The notes below the pieces were generated by a model that did not search any database, was not told the DNA's origin, and was given only the letters and a program-made list of their open reading frames with translations. From NCBI GenBank assembly GCA_025435555.1, contig JAIWWG010000025.1, positions 310,001-374,000 of the forward strand: a stretch of DNA of 64,000 bases, read 5' to 3'. The position numbers and the translations under genes are program-made. Numbering within the stretch: the stretch's first letter is position 1; each line of letters starts with the position of its first letter. Positions 47,038 through 56,354 of the stretch are shown here, one piece after another. The stretch comes from Chytriomyces cf. hyalinus JEL632. Its lineage: Eukaryota > Chytridiomycota > Chytridiomycetes > Chytridiales > Chytriomycetaceae.

Positions 47038-48704
47038 ATGTCTTCTGCCGCGGCACTCGACGCATTCCGTAAGTTCCCGATTATCTTCGTACTTGGACAA
47101 GCGCCGAGATGCTCATCGTAAACTGTTCCCACTTTTCCCACCTTCTGATGTTCTGGCGCAAAAAAAAAAGGCCTCCTTCGGGTGGAGGTCGTTCCCAACC
47201 AACCAACCTTATTCGACGTCTGCGATGTCTGCAATGTGACAAATCCAGCCGATGCTTGCGATGCGTCTGTCGTTAAAGCAGACTGCAATGGTCCTTTGAC
47301 GGGTGGCATAGGCACAATTCACTCGCTCCGAGGGAGCCAAATTGCATTTCTTTTATACTATGTTCCGTCCGTCGATCGAAAGCTGGAGTTCTTTCTTCAG
47401 GTGAGAAACACGGAAGGGGGGTTGAACTCTTGTCCCATAAACATGTTAACATTTGTTTTGACATGCCACCACTCTTTAGGACAATGCAAATCCGCCGCAG
47501 TTGGCACCGCTTGCAGACTATCGAAATCCCACAAATCCAGTTCCTGGACCTTTCTATCCTCAAGATAAAGGGCATATACCTGGAAAGTTTACAATCCAAG
47601 TTCCCGTCAGCATTGCTTTTGGAACAAATTACAGCCTTGTTTATAAGGTACCACCTTGATTCAATGAATCGTTTTTTGTATGACGAGCTGAGGTTTCCGG
47701 CAAAACAAATACTCTAGTACTACTATCCCAACAACAACTTTGCCGTCTACAATCAAAGCACTCTCAAGTTCCTCGCAATCGATAGCGATCCAGCAAACTG
47801 GATCATCCGACCACCCTCTACGCAAAGCCCCATGCCAAGCGCATCCGCAACCTTTGGTGCAACTTCCGGAAACGTTGATGGCACAGGCACGGGTGTAACA
47901 CAGACAGTTCTTGTGGCCATCATTGTGTCGCTATCTATTGCTGCCATTGCCCTTTCAGTGCTCGCATTTTTTGTTGGACGATTCCTGAAGCGGAAAAGAG
48001 ATACCGGGAACCGCAATGCCATGACGTCGACTTCCGACAGTTCCCGTTTCATGACAACGGATACGTTTTATTCAGGATCAACGACATTTGAAAGGAGTCT
48101 AGGAGAGAGGAATCGGTATTCAGGAGTCCCGTATAATCTAGACGATCTGGATATCCATAGCGATGACGAGGTCATAACGTTTCAGCGAAGTTTCGATCGA
48201 AATGGTGGTGGAGTTGTGAGTGGAAGCGGTTTGGCAGGAAATGGCGGCGGTGACGGCGGTGGGGGTGGTGCGTACGCTGCATCCATCACCAGCAAGACAA
48301 GTGGTGCATCGAATGCCTCGAAACCGCATTCTATTCTGAAAAAGCGCGACATTGTTGAGCGCGAGGCGCTACAAGCGCAAATTTACGATCAAGTGCTGAT
48401 ACAGCATCGGCAGAACCAAACAGGCAGTCGTGTTGCCGACTTGCAACCACCGCATGCGAAAAAGATGGTTAGTTTCAAGGAGAGTGCGGATGCTGCCTTG
48501 TGTCGGGTCCCGGAACATTTGTTTGCAGACTCTGACGGTGGAAGCGAGTTACCTGGGTATGTTGGGCCGCCTGTTGAAGGCAGGACGAATGACCGGCATG
48601 TTGCGCAGAGTGTCGGGCACTCGAGCGTCCTTGTCGATAGGGAGGACGACTCAGAATACGATTCTGAAAAGGACGACAACGACGACTGGCGCAATGAACA
48701 ATAA
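47038..48704 (+). CDS. Receptor-like single-pass membrane protein A with SILK/RVxF tail
   Basis: First of three paralogues. The ectodomain exons carry PTLFDVCDVCNVTNPADAC, then after an intron ADYRNPTNPVPGPFYPQDKG and NYSLVYK, then after a second intron YYYPNNNFAVYNQST. One membrane helix (TVLVAIIVSLSIAAIALSVL) is followed by basic stop-transfer residues. The cytoplasmic tail has DDEVITFQRSFDR, AYAASITSKTSG, HSILKKRDIVEREALQAQIY (SILK at 48330-48341), KKMVSFKESAD (RVxF-like, 48462-48476) and ends YDSEKDDNDDWRNEQ. Both introns are phase 0, as in B and C. The 5' end is unresolved: the frame upstream of VEVVPNQPTLF hits stops, a run of ten A interrupts it, and no signal peptide was found. The start given is tentative. 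Confidence 0.7.
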
Positions 48705-48756
48705 AATTGTGATTAGTTTTTTTTTTGCGAAGACAACGAAACAAATTTTGCATGAA

Positions 48757-50312
48757 ATGAGGTTTTGGTTTCTGGCGCTTCTCGTCCTGACAACGGGAAT
48801 CAGCAGCCAGCAGCAGAAGACGTGTGAGTGCCTTGTCTTTGTCTTGCCGCGCACAGATGCTTACACCCGTATCAACTATGCAGTGCCGACCCTTTCCATC
48901 CCCAGCAACAACCAGACAACCTATGAACCCTGCACGGTGTGTGCGTCGAACCAGACGCTCTGTCCAACGGAATGCGGCCCAAGCGGAAGCAACCCACTTC
49001 ACATCACTCTCGGCTCCACGTTCACTGTGCTCGTCCAATACGCCCGCAACGTTGCCGACATTGAGCTGTTCCTTGCATACGGTTCAAATCGGGTAATACT
49101 CTCCATTTCAATCGCATATTACTTGGATCCCAAAGCATCTGTGGAACTGACGCTTTTCTTGTCTGTTTTGTGCAGCGATCAGCCACCAGTGTATTCGCTT
49201 CGTACTGGAGTCTCTTGGACCATCTCGATCCGGCGGCGCCTCGCAGCGGGCGATTCAACCCGCAGGACCGACACAATCCGTACGCATTTGTTGTCAAGAT
49301 CCCTGTAAATTTGACGGAATTCTCAAACAACTACGGACTGGTTTATCGAGTTGAGTTGGAAATTTTCTCAACCCGTTCATCACCCACTTACCCCCAAAAA
49401 AAAAAAAAAATTACACAGGCATATGGATACAATTCAACACCATACGACGAATTCATTATCCGAAACCTGACCGTCGATGAATCATCCAAGAGCTGGACGG
49501 ATGTGACAAACGTGAACGGGTCCGCCACAATCTCAAACATCAACAACTCTGAACCACAACCGAGCTGGATATTCGCCGTCGTGGCCGTGGCGGGAGGGAT
49601 CGTCGTTCTCACTGCAATCGGATTCTCATTCTCAAAATACAAGCGACGGAAATCTCCATCCCGCGAATCGAAAGTGGAATCAGGCTCTGCAGTGCACGTG
49701 CAATCATCCAAACCACTGGATGAGTATGCATCTCAATCGGGAGAAAATCCAAATGCATCAGGAAATGCACGAAGCCTCCATTTATATGACGATGACGACA
49801 GTGACACTGAACTGATTGTCTTCAAACGGTCCTTGAAAGACCGCGGGTCTTCTTACGCTGCGTCTGTAAATAGTAAAGGCGGGACGAGTAGCGTGTCCAT
49901 GCCCCATTCAATCTTGAAGACAACATCAGCCGTGCAGGAGGAAGCCATCAAGGCACAAATCTATGATTCAATTTTGAGCGAGCACCAAATGCAGCAATTT
50001 ATGGCTGCTGCAGAGAATGCTGAGCGAAGTGAAGGTGCTGTTGAGAGAAAAGAGTCGAAAAAGGTCGCTTTCAAAGACACTGTCATGACTGTGGTTGTGG
50101 ATCTGACTCAGCCGCCCGTGGATGATGCTGTCAATCCAGAAGGACTTTTCGATGACTCGGAAGACGCTGACTACAAAATGCCTCATTTCAACGACGGTGG
50201 TTTGGAGAGAGACGTGAAAGCACTTCTTGCACGGGAGGTGCATGTGGAGGAGGATGATGCAGAATATGACAGTGAAAAGGATGATAATGACGATTGGCGG
50301 AAAGAAAAATAA
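48757..50312 (+). CDS. Receptor-like single-pass membrane protein B with SILK/RVxF tail
   Basis: Begins only 52 bases after gene A stops. MRFWFLALLVLTTGISSQQ is a clear signal peptide. The ectodomain has Cys pairs (CECL, CTVC, CPTEC) and Asn-glycosylation sites (NNQTT, SNQTL). Introns at about 49094-49172 and 49351-49418 are phase 0; the second falls after GLVYR, as in A after SLVYK. The membrane helix is WIFAVVAVAGGIVVLTAIGF followed by KYKRRK. The tail has SDTELIVFKRSLKDR, SSYAASVNSKGG, HSILKTTSAVQEEAIKAQIY (SILK at 49908-49919), KKVAFKDTVMTVVVDLTQPP (RVxF at 50061-50072), GLFDDSED, HFNDGGLERDVKALL and EYDSEKDDNDDWRKEK. No catalytic domain is visible, so any signalling would go through bound partners. 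Confidence 0.82.
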
Positions 50313-50410
50313 CACTTCTCGTAAATAAAATATGTATGTACAGTTCACCTAATTTCGGCCAGAACGAGCAACTTGGTTGATGAACATTTTCGGTTGGCAA
50401 AAAATCAGAC

Positions 50411-51855
50411 ATGTCAGAAACGGAACCAATGTTCACCATCGATAAAGCTGCTGGACTGCGGAGGGTCCTCCCATACAACTACACATACCGAATCAATGCC
50501 AAAGGGCGATGGTTCTCCCGGTCTTTGGTGGACGTGTTCACCGAAGAATTCAAAGACCAACCGCGCGAATACTACGCAAGTTTCTCACTTGGGGAAGAAA
50601 GAAAAACTGGCTCATACTGATGCCAAGTTCCCTCCTCTATTCTCATGTACGCAGTTGTGGGCGGTTACGAAGGGAGCATTGACTGTAAACAGCCGCTCAG
50701 TTGCAGCAGAGTACCTGATCAAGAATGGCGACGTAATCTGTCACACGACACACAAACATGAACCACCAGTGTCAGACGAAGCAATCCGTATTGTATTCGA
50801 GGACAAGGATCTTGTCGTTGTGGACAAGCCGGCGAGTATTCCGGTGACTTGTGTTTGGAAGTTGAATTCAAGTTTTCTTTTTTTGACGCCAAGCATGCAG
50901 GTCCATCCAACCGGGAGATACAATCACAATACGATTACGGGAATTCTGAAAAGCAAGGAATTTGGCTACAAAGATGTGTTTCCAGTGAATCGGCTGGATC
51001 GTTTAACGTCGGGAATCCTGCTGTTGGCACTGAACAAAGAAAAGGCATCTCAGCTTTCGAAAAGCTTTACCGATCGATCAATGCAAAAGACATATCTATG
51101 TCGCGTTCGCGGCGATTTTCCTGATGACTCCGTGACATGTTCAGAGCCAATCAAGGTTGTAACCAACAGTCAAGGAATCAACACAGTGTCTCCGGATGGA
51201 CTTCCCAGTGAAACTGAATTTTCGAAAATCAGCTTTGACGGAAAGACGAGCCTTGTGCAATGTATCTCTTTGATTTTGGTTTTTTTTGATGTGGGAGGAC
51301 AGTTGACAGTTTCGAAACAGGTCAACCAAAAACTGGACGAATGCATCAGATACGCGTCCATCTGCAGTTTCTTGGATTTCCTATTGCAAACGACCCCCTT
51401 TATGCGAATGAAGCGTACTGGTGTGTCCAATCTTGCGGCTTTACTCAATATTTAAATCTAATCAACTTTCCACAAGGGGAAAAGATCTTGCGAAAGGAGG
51501 AGGAGCAGATGCGAGCGAGGTGTCGAAAAGAGTCAAATCCATCAAGTTCAAGAGAATGTTGGCTGAAGACAAAGTAGAATCATCTGATGGGAAGAATCAC
51601 GAGAAACGGTTCAAGTCAGATCATGAATCAGCATCAAGCAACCCCGAGACACTTGAATCGCGCAATCATCAAAATGGAAATTCAAATGAGGCAAACGCGC
51701 TTGATCAGGATAACGAAGACCCGTTTCCTTGCCCGTGGTGCATCAATCCCATTCCTGATCCTCCTGAAGATGAAAAGAGCATTTTTCTGCACGCATGGAA
51801 GTATAAGGGAGATGGCTGGGAGTATGAGACTGAGAAGCCTGCATGGGCAAAGTAA
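50411..51855 (+). CDS. RluA-family pseudouridine synthase (RPUSD2/Rib2/Pus9-like)
   Basis: Makes pseudouridine in RNA, probably tRNA. It starts [16 protein letters not shown], then [18 protein letters not shown]. The S4-like segment is [20 protein letters not shown] with [14 protein letters not shown]. The catalytic domain has [11 protein letters not shown], intron, [16 protein letters not shown], the active-site loop [15 protein letters not shown] (catalytic Asp), [11 protein letters not shown], and [20 protein letters not shown]. The C-terminal [20 protein letters not shown] and [16 protein letters not shown], ending PAWAK, matches the RPUSD2/Rib2 end. The first intron appears to use a GC donor: TACTAC is followed by GCAAGT at 50571, and the phase fits only there. 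Rib2's extra deaminase domain is absent. Confidence 0.85.
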
Positions 51856-52242
51856 TACAAGCTTGCAATGTCACTCCCGACTTCCAAACCTCTCCCTCCC
51901 TCCCACCAGGATCCTTGGTAGGAGGGTTGATCAAGTGTGGCGCAATCAAAACGACAGAAAGTGGAATGAATGCCCTCTGATCGAACCCCGCCCTTGACTG
52001 TTTACGATGCGCGCAGTTGATCTTACGTCCTTCCTTCCCATGCACATACATCCTTCCCATGTCCAAGTCAAACAAAAGTACACACACGCGCTGCCGAAAG
52101 TGCAATTCAAGCCGCAGATTTATTCGCAAACAATTAAATTGGGCTTTTGAGCCACACGCAAAAATAGGAGATTGGGAGATTGGAAGGGAAAAAAGTCCAC
52201 CGTTTGGAAATTTACTTCCTCGGCACACTTGGACCCAACCCA
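51856..52242. other. Intergenic, no gene seen
   Basis: A 387-base spacer before receptor-like gene C, without a recognisable gene or repeat. Confidence 0.45.
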
Positions 52243-54164
52243 ATGAACCTGACGCTGAAGCTGCGACTCTTGCTCGTTGCTTCGATGCAGGCGATGCACG
52301 CGTTGAGTCGTACGTTCATGTCCAGAGAGACCGAATGCCGTAGCCTAATTGCCCCCAATTCAACTACAGTCTCTATCACTCTTGCCCCCTCCTCGGAGGT
52401 CTTTGACCTGTGCCAAGTCTGCGCACCAACACTGGCCGCCGCCGCTGCCGCTTCCCCTTCCCCTTCCGCCGCCACCCGTCTTGCAGCGACTAGTCCATTC
52501 ACTTGGCAGGCGAACCAATCAGCGCCACTGACAAGCCCCGCTTCACTGACTCTATCTGCGTCTGCTCCCGCAGAGGACATACCCGACAGATGCAAACTGT
52601 CTGATTATGCAGAAATAGTCCGGACAAAGTGTGGCATTGGCAAAGAGAACCCCGTCCATGTCCTTGCAGGGTTGTATCTCGGTCTGGTCATTACGTTCCC
52701 AGAGAAGCAAATGACCCCCTATGTTGCGATTCTGTTGAACAATACGGTACATCCTATATCGCATCTTGCTTTGCTGTGATCCACTAACATGTCGGTCTTG
52801 ACAGCTTTCCAATGGTACGCTGTCTGCAACAAATCTTGCGGATTATAGGAATGACTCCTTGCATCCGCTTGAGGGAATTTTCAATCCTGCGGACCGCTCT
52901 TCAGATCGAAGCAGAGTCCCTCGTTACATTTACACGTTTCTGATTCCGACAAACTTGGACACCTCTATTGCGGCCGTGAAAGCAAACGGAGATGGTACCG
53001 CGAATCCTTCTGTGATTCCTGCTGAATCGCCCGTGCGTCCATTTTTTCAAATAACCTACAATGTAAGTTTTTGTGGTTCTGTTGGTTGTGAAAGTAAATG
53101 ATAACAGAAGTTTAACAAAAAAAAAAAAATAGTCCTACTCGGGTCCTCAAAAGCCATCTTACATTGCATCATACCCCATCCGAAACCTCACAATTGACAC
53201 TGACAAAAGCACTTGGATTGCGCCACACTCATCTATCCCATCCCCGCTTCCTGTTGCACAAGGCGGTAAACTCGCCGACACCGCCTATGCCATCATCATT
53301 TCTGGATCTGTCGGCGTAGCTCTCATCATCACGATTGCTGGATACATGATTTCCCGGAAACGCCACGCAACCAGACTTTCTCGACGGTTTGAATCGCGAA
53401 TGGATTTATACAACCATCCACTGCAACAAATCAATGAACGCGGAGTTTCAAGCGACCACTTGCGCGTAAAATCTGGCGCAGAACTCCAAGGCGGTGGTGG
53501 CGATGGCTTCAGCAAGGCCACGGCGTACCGAAAACTCACAAACAACTCGAGCAACAGCCATGAACCCATCTATGACACGGATAGCGATGAAGAAAACGTT
53601 GCGGTCGTGTTCAAGAAAAACTACAATGGTTCATACGCTGCTTCTGTTGCAAGTAAAAACAGCCGTGCGCGGACAAGCAGTCTCAACAGCAGTAGCCATC
53701 CGCGGTCAATTCTAAAGACTCAGAGGATGGTTGAAAGTGAAGCAATCAATGCGCAAATGTATGATCCGATTATCGTGACTTCGTATAGGCCGCCTTCAAG
53801 GAATCATGAAGTGGATGCTACTCCTGCCGCCTCAGGGAATGGGCGTAGCGAAAACGGCACACCTCTTTCGAAACGCGTAGTTTTTAAAGAGACTGTGGAG
53901 ACTGTGATTGTGGATCTGAGTATGCCTCCTGCATTGGACGAAGTTCCAACTGGACTGTTTGACGATTCAGAAGACGATATGGCTGGACATGAGGGTGAGG
54001 ATGATGAAGATGACGACAGTGACCGGCTGCATTTCAATGATGGGGGTGTTGAGAAGGACATTCGGGAATTGCTCCGTCGGAAAGTGGAAATTGAAGAAGA
54101 AGAAGAATATGACAGTCACACGGAGGACAATGATGACTGGAGAAAAGAACCCGGGCACCTTTGA
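52243..54164 (+). CDS. Receptor-like single-pass membrane protein C with SILK/RVxF tail
   Basis: Starts MNLTLKLRLLLVASMQAMHA, a signal peptide. The ectodomain has FDLCQVCAP, an Ala/Ser/Pro-rich insert, DRCKLSDYAE and Asn-glycosylation sites. Phase-0 introns at about 52747-52803 and 53063-53131 match those of A and B; the second follows FFQITYN. YIASYPIRNLTIDTDKSTW aligns with DEFIIRNLTVDESSKSW of B. The helix is AYAIIISGSVGVALIITIAG, then SRKRH. The tail repeats the plan: DSDEENVAVVFKKNY, GSYAASVASKNS, PRSILKTQRMVESEAINAQM (SILK at 53705-53716), SKRVVFKETVETVIVDLSMP (RVxF at 53874-53885), GLFDDSEDD, LHFNDGGVEKDIRELL and SHTEDNDDWRKEPGHL. It has diverged most in the ectodomain. Confidence 0.82.
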
Positions 54165-54769: not shown

Positions 54770-55109
54770 TTACACAATGATGTTGTTGATGGGAATGTGA
54801 ATCAGCTTCACAAAGAAGCCAATGAAGCCCATGATAACAAAGCCCATGCCAATGGCGAACGCCATCTGAAAGAACTCTGAATAGTGCGGTTGAGAGAGGT
54901 TAGAAGCAAGCGTGGGAACAAGCGTACTCCGGCAAACGGTTTTTTGTGCGTTAATTGATCCGCCGTTTTCGCCGAATCCGTCCGCGAGGAGGGGAGTGTT
55001 GGTAAACACACGCACCAGTCTGAGTAGGCTTCGTGCACTTGTTGATGAGGTTGATGGAGTCCTTGGCAAACTGCTTTGGGCCGTCGATGATGTCGGTGAT
55101 GTTGTCCAT
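54770..55109 (-). CDS. SSS1: Protein transport protein Sec61 gamma (Sss1)
   Basis: The small tail-anchored subunit of the ER protein-conducting channel. It starts [20 protein letters not shown] at 55109, continues [11 protein letters not shown], and after an intron (about 54879-55018, donor GTGCGT) [20 protein letters not shown] then [15 protein letters not shown]. The amphipathic helix plus single membrane helix and the [12 protein letters not shown]-[IL]-V end are diagnostic. The frame stops at 54770, but GTAAGT there could also be a donor, adding one or two residues from a short last exon. Length (about 68 residues) is normal. Confidence 0.93.
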
Positions 55110-55502
55110 TTTTGGGCACTTGTTTTGTTGGATGGAAAAAGAAGCTGTGTGCTTCCCATTGGTCCAAACAAGAAATGAATATTCCACGGCCTCAGCTCGA
55201 TTTTCAAACGCGGGCAATATACCTACTGTGACAGTTAATGCCTTGATAGTCAGACTCGCGGTGAATGGGAGTTGGAGGCAATGAAAGGTCTTGCTTGAGG
55301 AGTCCAAGAGGGGAACAAGTGTCCTGAGCATGAAGCACTTCTCAGGAACCCTTTGTTTCACATTTAGTTTATAACTACTCGAACTATCTTCCTTGATGTT
55401 GTGGGTGGATGCTGATCTCTTTGGATCCACCCCTCTTCCCATCATTTCGCACAAAAAGCATGCACCTGTCGACTTTGCATCCGTTAAAACCAACCTGCAA
55501 AA
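55110..55502. other. Divergent intergenic region Sec61 gamma / cofilin
   Basis: A 393-base spacer between the two start codons. I see no gene in it; it probably holds both promoters. Confidence 0.45.
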
Positions 55503-56354
55503 ATGGCAAGTGCACAACTTGAACCCCTCTTTCAACTCCGCGCCATCCCCTAAGACCCCTATCGGATTCATTGCCTGGTCTCACTTCACCTTGCGTTGCG
55601 GTGAACCGCCCAGCATTCCCTTCTCAACTGACGCCACTCACAGCATCTCAACGCTTCCTCACTAACCCTTATCTGTCCTCCCATTAGTCTTCCGGAGTCG
55701 GTGCTGATGATGCCTGTGTTAACCTCGTAAGCAAACTCTTGCTATTCTTCTCTCGCCGCCGTGTCGTTTGACCCTTTCTCGAAATTCCCTACTCAGTTTG
55801 AGGAGATGAAACTGCGTCGCAAATACGCCTTCATTGTGTACAAAATTGACGGAGACCAAATCGTTGTCGATTTGGCTCTCACTGCTGAGGAGTCTGCTGC
55901 GCTTGGCTCCGAAGCTTCTTACGAAAAGTTTATTGCCCAAATGCCTGAGGGCGAGGGGCGTTACGGTGTCTTTGACTTTGAGTACGACACTGGGGCTGAC
56001 GGTATCCGAAACAAGCTGGTCTTCTTCCTGTGGTATGGATTGCATGGCGGACTGGTGTTGACTCATGATACAAAATTTATTCACTTTTCTTGGTGTTGAC
56101 CAGGGCCCCTGACACTGCCAGAATCAAGTCGCGCATGCTGTACGCCTCCTCAAAGCAGGCAATCCGCCTCAGATTGAACGGAATCAATACTGAGATCCAG
56201 TGCACTGACCCAGCTGAGGTACATAACGGCTTATTTGATTCATAGCCATATTCTGCCAGTTAACATTGGAACTGTTTTTCAGCTCTCCTTCGAGTCCGTG
56301 TTTGAAAAGCTGGCTCCTTCTGACGCCAAGCCAGTCCACAAAGCAGCCAAGTAA
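55503..56354 (+). CDS. COF1: Cofilin / actin-depolymerising factor
   Basis: Severs and depolymerises actin filaments. The second exon reads SSGVGADDACVNL, the conserved cofilin N-terminus. The initiator Met must come from a separate exon, as often in cofilin genes: AAAATG at 55503-55505 followed by GCAAGT (a GC donor), with the acceptor CATTAG at 55687. Further introns at about 55730-55796, 56032-56102 and 56219-56281 separate FEEMKLRRKYAFIVYKIDG, YEKFIAQMPEGEGRYGVFDF, NKLVFFLWAPDTARIKSRML, YASSKQAIRLRLNGI and LSFESVFEKLAPSD. The actin-binding long helix (SRMLYASSK) and the regulatory N-terminal Ser are present. It ends HKAAK. The exon-1 call is inference; the protein identity is not. Confidence 0.9.

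Follow-up and report, generated by a model that had tools for sequence, protein, structure and literature searches.

A chytrid family of single-pass membrane proteins with conserved SILK and RVxF motifs, a predicted PP1-targeting module

Described PP1 binders and the Chytriomyces proteins

The specificity of protein phosphatase 1 (PP1) comes from the proteins that hold it. Among these, KNL1 is a kinetochore scaffold and not a membrane protein, polycystin-1 is a multi-pass animal protein, ELFN1 and TMEM132 are membrane proteins, and inhibitor-2 has a helix located after its docking motifs. Here I describe three neighbouring genes, called A, B, and C, of the saprotrophic chytrid Chytriomyces cf. 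hyalinus JEL632. The window, the whole stretch of DNA analysed, is 64,000 nucleotides long (positions 310,001 to 374,000 of contig JAIWWG010000025.1, which has 396,617 bases in a genome of 37.8 Mb). It is likely that A, B, and C, and also a paralogue D from elsewhere in the genome, span the membrane once with type I topology and that their cytoplasmic tails, which are largely disordered, serve as a PP1-targeting module, with a SILK motif followed by an RVxF motif. The family probably tethers PP1 to the membrane, since the key motif residues are among the few tail residues that are unchanged between genera.

Which described proteins resemble these tails? KNL1/Spc105 has a SILK motif N-terminal to RVxF and a Ser at the x position, as in the A-type chytrid proteins (those with VSF). 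Both SILK and RVSF of KNL1 can be inhibited by phosphorylation by Aurora B, and the gap between them is about 29 residues (S25; RVSF at 58-61; PMC6715587), in contrast to 41-63 residues across the chytrid family. Inhibitor-2 and inhibitor-3 also bring SILK-type and RVxF-type motifs together (PMC10066265), but these inhibitors have an active-site-blocking helix or a CCC motif. LAP1B, a nuclear-envelope protein, shares the single membrane helix, an RVxF-type dock on the non-lumenal side, and a SILK sequence. However, it is a type II protein in which SILK is found on the C-terminal side of the functional RVxF and plays no part in binding, whereas the chytrid SILK is N-terminal and conserved (PMC3792071). 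Polycystin-1 is a receptor-like membrane protein reported as a PP1-alpha regulatory subunit, in a paper that uses RVxF (PMC3366979). The Glc7-docking KKVAF of yeast eIF2gamma is the same pentamer as in gene B, but eIF2gamma is a translation factor acting in cis, and the excerpted description includes neither a SILK motif nor a membrane helix (PMC6506691, a review). The yeast cell-wall stress sensors Mid2 and Wsc1 likewise combine an outer domain with a cytoplasmic tail, and UniRef calls the chytrid protein P0001 'Mid2 domain-containing'. A term search of the available text of a paper on Mid2/Wsc1 interactors (PMC6469404) gave no mention of Glc7. A Pfam scan of 11 distinct proteins (the five gene models A to E and six database proteins) gave no KNL1/Spc7, inhibitor-2, Mid2, or WSC family match; it included gene C, a 94% identical orthologue of P0001, which lay outside the scan. 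In the titles and abstract openings listed by searches of an open-access library on PP1 docking in transmembrane proteins, Chytriomyces receptors, RVxF in chytrids, and single-pass proteins bearing the two motifs, no description was found of a receptor-like membrane family with SILK and RVxF both present in conserved order. A search on ELFN gave no paper, which says little.

Conservation of the docking motifs across lineages

The initial annotation, made from the letters alone, had described SILK and then RVxF in all three tails, and this order was borne out. The gap from SILK to the four-residue RVxF motif is 41, 47, and 52 residues in A, B, and C, respectively, and all three tails also have the YAAS, LF[DA]DS, and EYDS..DND.WR blocks. 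Is this pattern kept in other chytrids? The first profile search found three proteins among the 7998 best candidates scored and missed the orthologues of A and D. A block-masked profile recovered both and found at least 17 relatives with E-values from 3.6e-69 to 1.0e-11, the best 8000 candidates by word sharing being scored. A protein search with the tail of P0002, the C. hyalinus orthologue of B, matched only P0002 itself. The relatives listed belong to the seven genera Chytriomyces, Siphonaria, Rhizoclosmatium, Podochytrium, Obelidium, Entophlyctis, and Physocladia; the lineage was checked for three of them, and Chytriomyces, Entophlyctis, and Physocladia are all Chytriomycetaceae.

The five gene models and 16 database proteins made 21 rows, representing 15 non-redundant lineages. 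An exact SILK ([GS]IL[RK], N-terminal to RVxF) is present in 18 of the 21 rows and 13 of the 15 lineages. A loose RVxF ([RK]x0-1[VI]{P}[FW]) was found in the cytoplasmic part of every row, and [KR]-x-V-x-F in every lineage. RVxF is retained in all seven genera found and SILK in six. Of 180 tail columns filled in at least 12 of the 15 lineages, only five are invariant in all 15: S299, S314 and K317 of SILK, and V366 and F368 of RVxF. The motif residues S, K, V, and F therefore make up four of the five (hypergeometric P about 1.8e-6). Position 364, two before the V, is K or R in all 15 lineages. The x between V and F, by contrast, occurs in eight forms, as it should if it faces outward. Since the motifs had been chosen from A, B, and C, the test was repeated outside Chytriomyces. 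The nine rows there gave ten invariant columns out of 132, and five of the six anchor columns were among these ten (P 4.7e-6); without Entophlyctis all six were among twelve of 149 (P 6.7e-8). When A, B, C, and their near-duplicates were left out, four of the six were among six of 96 (P 6.5e-5). These P values are guides only, as columns are treated as independent and sequences as unrelated. The comparison of motifs with flanks that had been proposed along with the annotation was thereby carried out in other chytrids, and the anchors are kept beyond their flanks in other genera.

Judged from these alignments, selection is holding the motif, because the anchors are invariant across genera, the SILK codons differ synonymously among A to D, and the synonymous sites between C and D are saturated (dS by the NG86 method, 1.9 for the ectodomain and 1.6 for helix plus tail). 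The presence of the pair by itself is only suggestive. When five tails were shuffled 20,000 times each, SILK followed by RVxF within 100 residues appeared in 4 to 6.5 per 10,000, and at this rate a few examples per proteome are expected, as would suit a chance pair in low-complexity tails that is common to A, B, and C only through paralogy. But such a pair would hardly have lasted in so many genera despite the C-D divergence and ectodomains that are only 20-28% identical among A, B, C, and E. Conservation across genera is strong evidence, and the rows outside Chytriomyces already contradict a chance origin, which is barely credible.

Several observations weigh against PP1 docking as the function of the tails. 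The profile query contained the motif blocks, which biases the set of relatives; since only the 8000 most word-sharing candidates were scored, relatives without the motifs could be missed. SILK is degenerate or lost in three of the 21 rows. Two of these are gene E from two species, where the motif reads SAMK or is missing according to the alignment used; the third is Entophlyctis P0015, which has SALK. The annotation would have been countered by homologues that lose the motifs and keep the flanks. The loose RVxF was present in every row, but Entophlyctis retains the flanking AQIYDP block, a partial hit against SILK. The membrane PP1 binder LAP1B shows that a SILK sequence can be irrelevant (PMC3792071). 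The strict RVxF pattern, [KR][KR][ACHKMNQRSTV]V[CHKNQRST][FW] (PMC4794898), occurs in three of the 15 lineages (four of the 21 rows), all of them A-type: gene A, Siphonaria P0009, and Podochytrium P0012. The other 12 lineages, B, C, D, and E included, have a different x residue or no extra upstream base; the x residues of B, C, and D (Ala, Val, or Ile) are all absent from the strict list. In favour of docking, the KKVAF of B, though outside the strict pattern, is reported as a working dock that recruits Glc7 to yeast eIF2gamma (PMC6506691). The loose pattern occurs by chance in about 25% of proteins (PMC4794898), and further loose matches exist in the E, Siphonaria, and Entophlyctis proteins. 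Finally, S299, D378, W443, R444, and E413 are, where present, as invariant as the motif anchors (D378, E413, W443, and R444 in the 13 or 14 lineages that have them). Thus, the tail should do more than bind PP1.

Could the strings be conserved for another partner, or as kinase sites, with PP1 left unbound? R/K-S-I-L-K might be a basophilic site, and VxF might form a beta-strand. The equal invariance of S299, D378, W443, and R444, the failure of the strict RVxF in 12 of 15 lineages, and the degenerate SILK of E and Entophlyctis all agree with this. However, PP1 docking accounts better for the split between invariant and free positions, for the motif order, and for the fact that the two motifs are kept together from genus to genus, and another partner is an unlikely explanation.

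The very end of the tail (P0002 residues 441-446) consists of acidic residues and then W-R. Neither W443 nor R444 varies in any of the 14 lineages having those columns, and the orthologues of D, P0005 and P0006, which were left out of the set, end in W-K-R. This C-terminus may resemble Arp2/3-binding acidic tails.

PP1 genes, membrane topology, and predicted docking

Does the genome encode a suitable partner? At least five genes for the PP1 catalytic subunit were found, two of them in tandem (C218:34137-36789 for the two, C134:135654-136764, C1:551501-552615, and C3:83742-84791; loci L026-L029). The five proteins are 81-87% identical to human PP1-alpha over the mapped residues. The SILK-pocket, RVxF-groove, and catalytic residues that were checked are intact, except for L59I, which all five share, and E287D, seen in a single one. 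Apart from the acidic patch and N86, the pocket residues checked are in part those which I assume to form the pockets. The acidic patch (54, 56, 166, 167, 242, and 287) and N86 were taken from PMC10066265. A sixth gene, which I label PPZ-like (70% identical), has D166A and E167G, and residues 54-56 are unmapped there. The SILK site is reported to be conserved in fungal PP1 but not in PPZ, so that SILK should favour PP1 over PPZ; the same source mentions two PP1 genes in the early fungi Gonapodya and Allomyces (PMC8836105).

The tail is assigned to the cytoplasmic side of the single helix because its side is positively charged. A single helix with an excess of Lys and Arg on the inner side was found in all 20 rows scored (P0016 lay outside this count); in gene A, the 15 residues outside the helix include no Lys or Arg, and those inside include five. 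Two structure models of P0002 place the helix at 199-227 or 199-228. The N-terminus is strongly hydrophobic in B and several relatives, weakly so in A, and ambiguous in D and E; by hydropathy, a signal peptide is not evident at the N-terminus of gene A as modelled.

How would the tail act? RVxF would hold PP1 through its hydrophobic groove, and SILK would occupy the second, acidic pocket. By the spacing, I presume that hydrophobic (phi-phi) docking after RVxF would also fit. As far as I can tell, in part from PMC10066265, the RVxF and SILK pockets lie away from the active site. Thus, the tail would leave the active site open and place active PP1 at the membrane near its substrates instead of blocking it. 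PP1 binding is weakened when a Ser or Thr at x of RVxF is phosphorylated (PMC10066265), so that the A-type proteins, with Ser at x, may dock in a kinase-switchable manner at that site, while docking of B, C, and D, whose x cannot be phosphorylated, would be more constitutive. Gene E, with RVxF only, would bind PP1 more weakly or less selectively.

The initial annotation had proposed membrane-bound PP1 anchors or inhibitors. A membrane-tethered inhibitor would use SILK and RVxF as inhibitor-2 does, block the active site with a helix after SILK or with the acidic C-terminus, and so lower PP1 activity at the membrane. Both P0002 models do put a helix just after SILK (319-350, or 319-332 plus 334-352), in a stretch with the recurring pattern V-x-x-E-[AT]-[LI]-x-A-Q-[IM]-Y-D-P, and inhibitor-2 joins SILK, RVxF, and a helix (PMC10066265). 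However, this helix is predicted with modest confidence (block means 56-67 over 321-350) and lies between SILK and RVxF, the inhibitor-2 helix being residues 130-169 (PMC10066265), and the tails have no inhibitor-2 family match in Pfam. The inhibitor is distinctly unlikely. PP1 docking thus stood at the sequence level, through the conserved anchors, the intact pockets, and the tail on the positive side, and the inhibitor half did not, as no active-site-blocking element was shown. An anchor, that is, a targeting subunit, is more likely.

The ectodomain is predicted, with modest confidence, to be a beta-sandwich. The matches listed by fold searches with it were all generic beta-sandwiches (LPMO, RhoGDI, NPC2, Ig, and CBM among them), and the folds weighed include the copper-binding X325. 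None of the five gene models was placed in a family by Pfam or NCBIfam scans. A few weak matches were seen, to Commissureless, Mitoguardin, IgaA, PMP1_2, and GG_III-CTERM for the models and to MOV-10 Ig-like, Orf78, and others for the relatives, and where a cut-off was printed they fall below it; a PDB sequence search gave two weak matches, both to membrane-helix proteins. The ectodomain had been called fast-changing, which was not supported. Between C and D, dN/dS by NG86 is 0.17 for the ectodomain and 0.16 for helix plus tail (the latter by this method only), and judged by these ratios the ectodomain does not change fast. In three orthologue pairs (B, C, and E), identity is 91-95% for the ectodomain and 92-98% for the tail.

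Gene models, neighbouring genes, and significance

The features of the locus are listed in Table 1. A, B, and C are real paralogues on the same strand, each with an ectodomain, one helix, and a long tail, as first read from the sequence. Four exons make up each gene, and the introns are of phase 1, 0, and 0; the two shared phase-0 ectodomain introns had been noted before, and a phase-1 intron near the N-terminus is also common to the three. The model of gene C is identical, letter for letter, to the annotated protein P0004 (BJ741DRAFT_649052, Chytriomyces cf. hyalinus JEL632), and that of gene B equals P0002 in length, with 92% identity. The first two exons of gene A are less certain, since its C. 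hyalinus orthologue P0008 (402 aa) does not have the stretch read in exon 2 of the model. Within window 47038-47170, gene A as modelled opens with a short exon, and its N-terminus has no strong hydrophobicity, unlike that of B; an upstream exon may be absent from the model.

Table 1. Features of the locus, in window positions
Feature	Position	Strand	Details and basis
Gene A, 471 aa, A-type (VSF)	47038..48704	+	exons 47038-47068, 47171-47400, 47480-47647, 47718-48704; gene model
Gene A transmembrane helix	47907..47963	+	residues 207-225; hydropathy
Gene A SILK (TCT ATT CTG AAA)	48330..48341	+	starts at residue 348; read in sequence, motif scan
Gene A RVxF, KMVSF	48462..48476	+	strict consensus as KKMVSF; motif scan
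Gene B, 447 aa	48757..50312	+	exons 48757-48823, 48884-49092, 49176-49349, 49419-50312; gene model
Gene B transmembrane helix	49569..49625	+	residues 201-219; hydropathy
Gene B SILK	49908..49919	+	starts at residue 314; motif scan
Gene B RVxF, KKVAF	50058..50072	+	motif scan
RNA pseudouridine synthase	50325-51455	+	between B and C, unrelated to the family; Pfam/NCBIfam scan
Gene C, 577 aa	52243..54164	+	exons 52243-52309, 52370-52746, 52805-53062, 53133-54164; gene model
Gene C transmembrane helix	53283..53339	+	residues 285-303; hydropathy
Gene C SILK	53706..53717	+	starts at residue 426; motif scan
Gene C RVxF, KRVVF	53871..53885	+	motif scan
SecE/Sec61-gamma gene	54770-55222	-	downstream of C; Pfam/NCBIfam scan
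Cofilin/ADF gene	55731-56099	+	downstream of C; Pfam/NCBIfam scan

The paralogues D (578 aa) and E (407 aa) lie in tandem on another contig (C1, locus L013). In the last exon, D and C share 66% identity, and the model of E has the length of the annotated C. hyalinus protein P0003. Missing from gene E (L013 6235-7630, minus strand) are the first ectodomain phase-0 intron, the YAAS block, a canonical SILK, and the terminal W-R. It retains the FNDGG block and RVxF, and RDVAF is a further RVxF-like string in it. Thus, the stretch from 47038 to 54164 does hold three neighbouring family genes as described, but the pseudouridine synthase also lies inside it, and at least two members lie outside. A genome search with three relatives gave no convincing sixth copy and only one extra match below E 0.1. 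This match (C1:368257-368847, E 1.5e-5) is an acidic frame of 703 codons in which no SILK was seen on reading, and it was rejected as a member; matches in C231, C68, C178, and C21 are weak (E 0.5 or more).

Locus tags are consecutive for A-B (HDU81_002762/3) and E-D (HDU77_010740/1) in C. hyalinus and for three members in Podochytrium (HDU98_010851-3), which suggests that the tandem arrangement is conserved. In an unrooted tree with several long branches, the five VSF (A-type) rows cluster with Physocladia, E is drawn near B, and Entophlyctis near P0016. One change suffices for the no-SILK label on this tree, but this count says little, as 13 unlabelled rows were ignored. Both A-type and C/D-like members are present in Chytriomyces and in Podochytrium, suggesting that the split between them is older than the genera. 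A SecE/Sec61-gamma look-alike frame, read by eye, is also found downstream of D, separated from it by other genes (L013 50-385, minus strand). With the SecE/Sec61-gamma gene near C, the C and D regions may represent an old segmental duplication.

The role of the ectodomain is presumably to sense, or to hold on to, something at the cell surface. In a broader scheme, the family would be chytrid-specific surface receptors coupled to phosphatase: a carbohydrate-binding-like beta-sandwich would sense a ligand or wall contact and alter PP1 docking by the tail, which would be kinase-switched in the A-type and constitutive in B, C, and D, and the genes for the PP1 catalytic subunit would form an expanded set beside it. 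This scheme is doubtful and is offered tentatively. If PP1 binding is true, the predicted anchors would link the cell surface directly to dephosphorylation in chytrids, and the split between the A-type (VSF) and the B/C/D-type would be a natural experiment on phospho-switchable docking.

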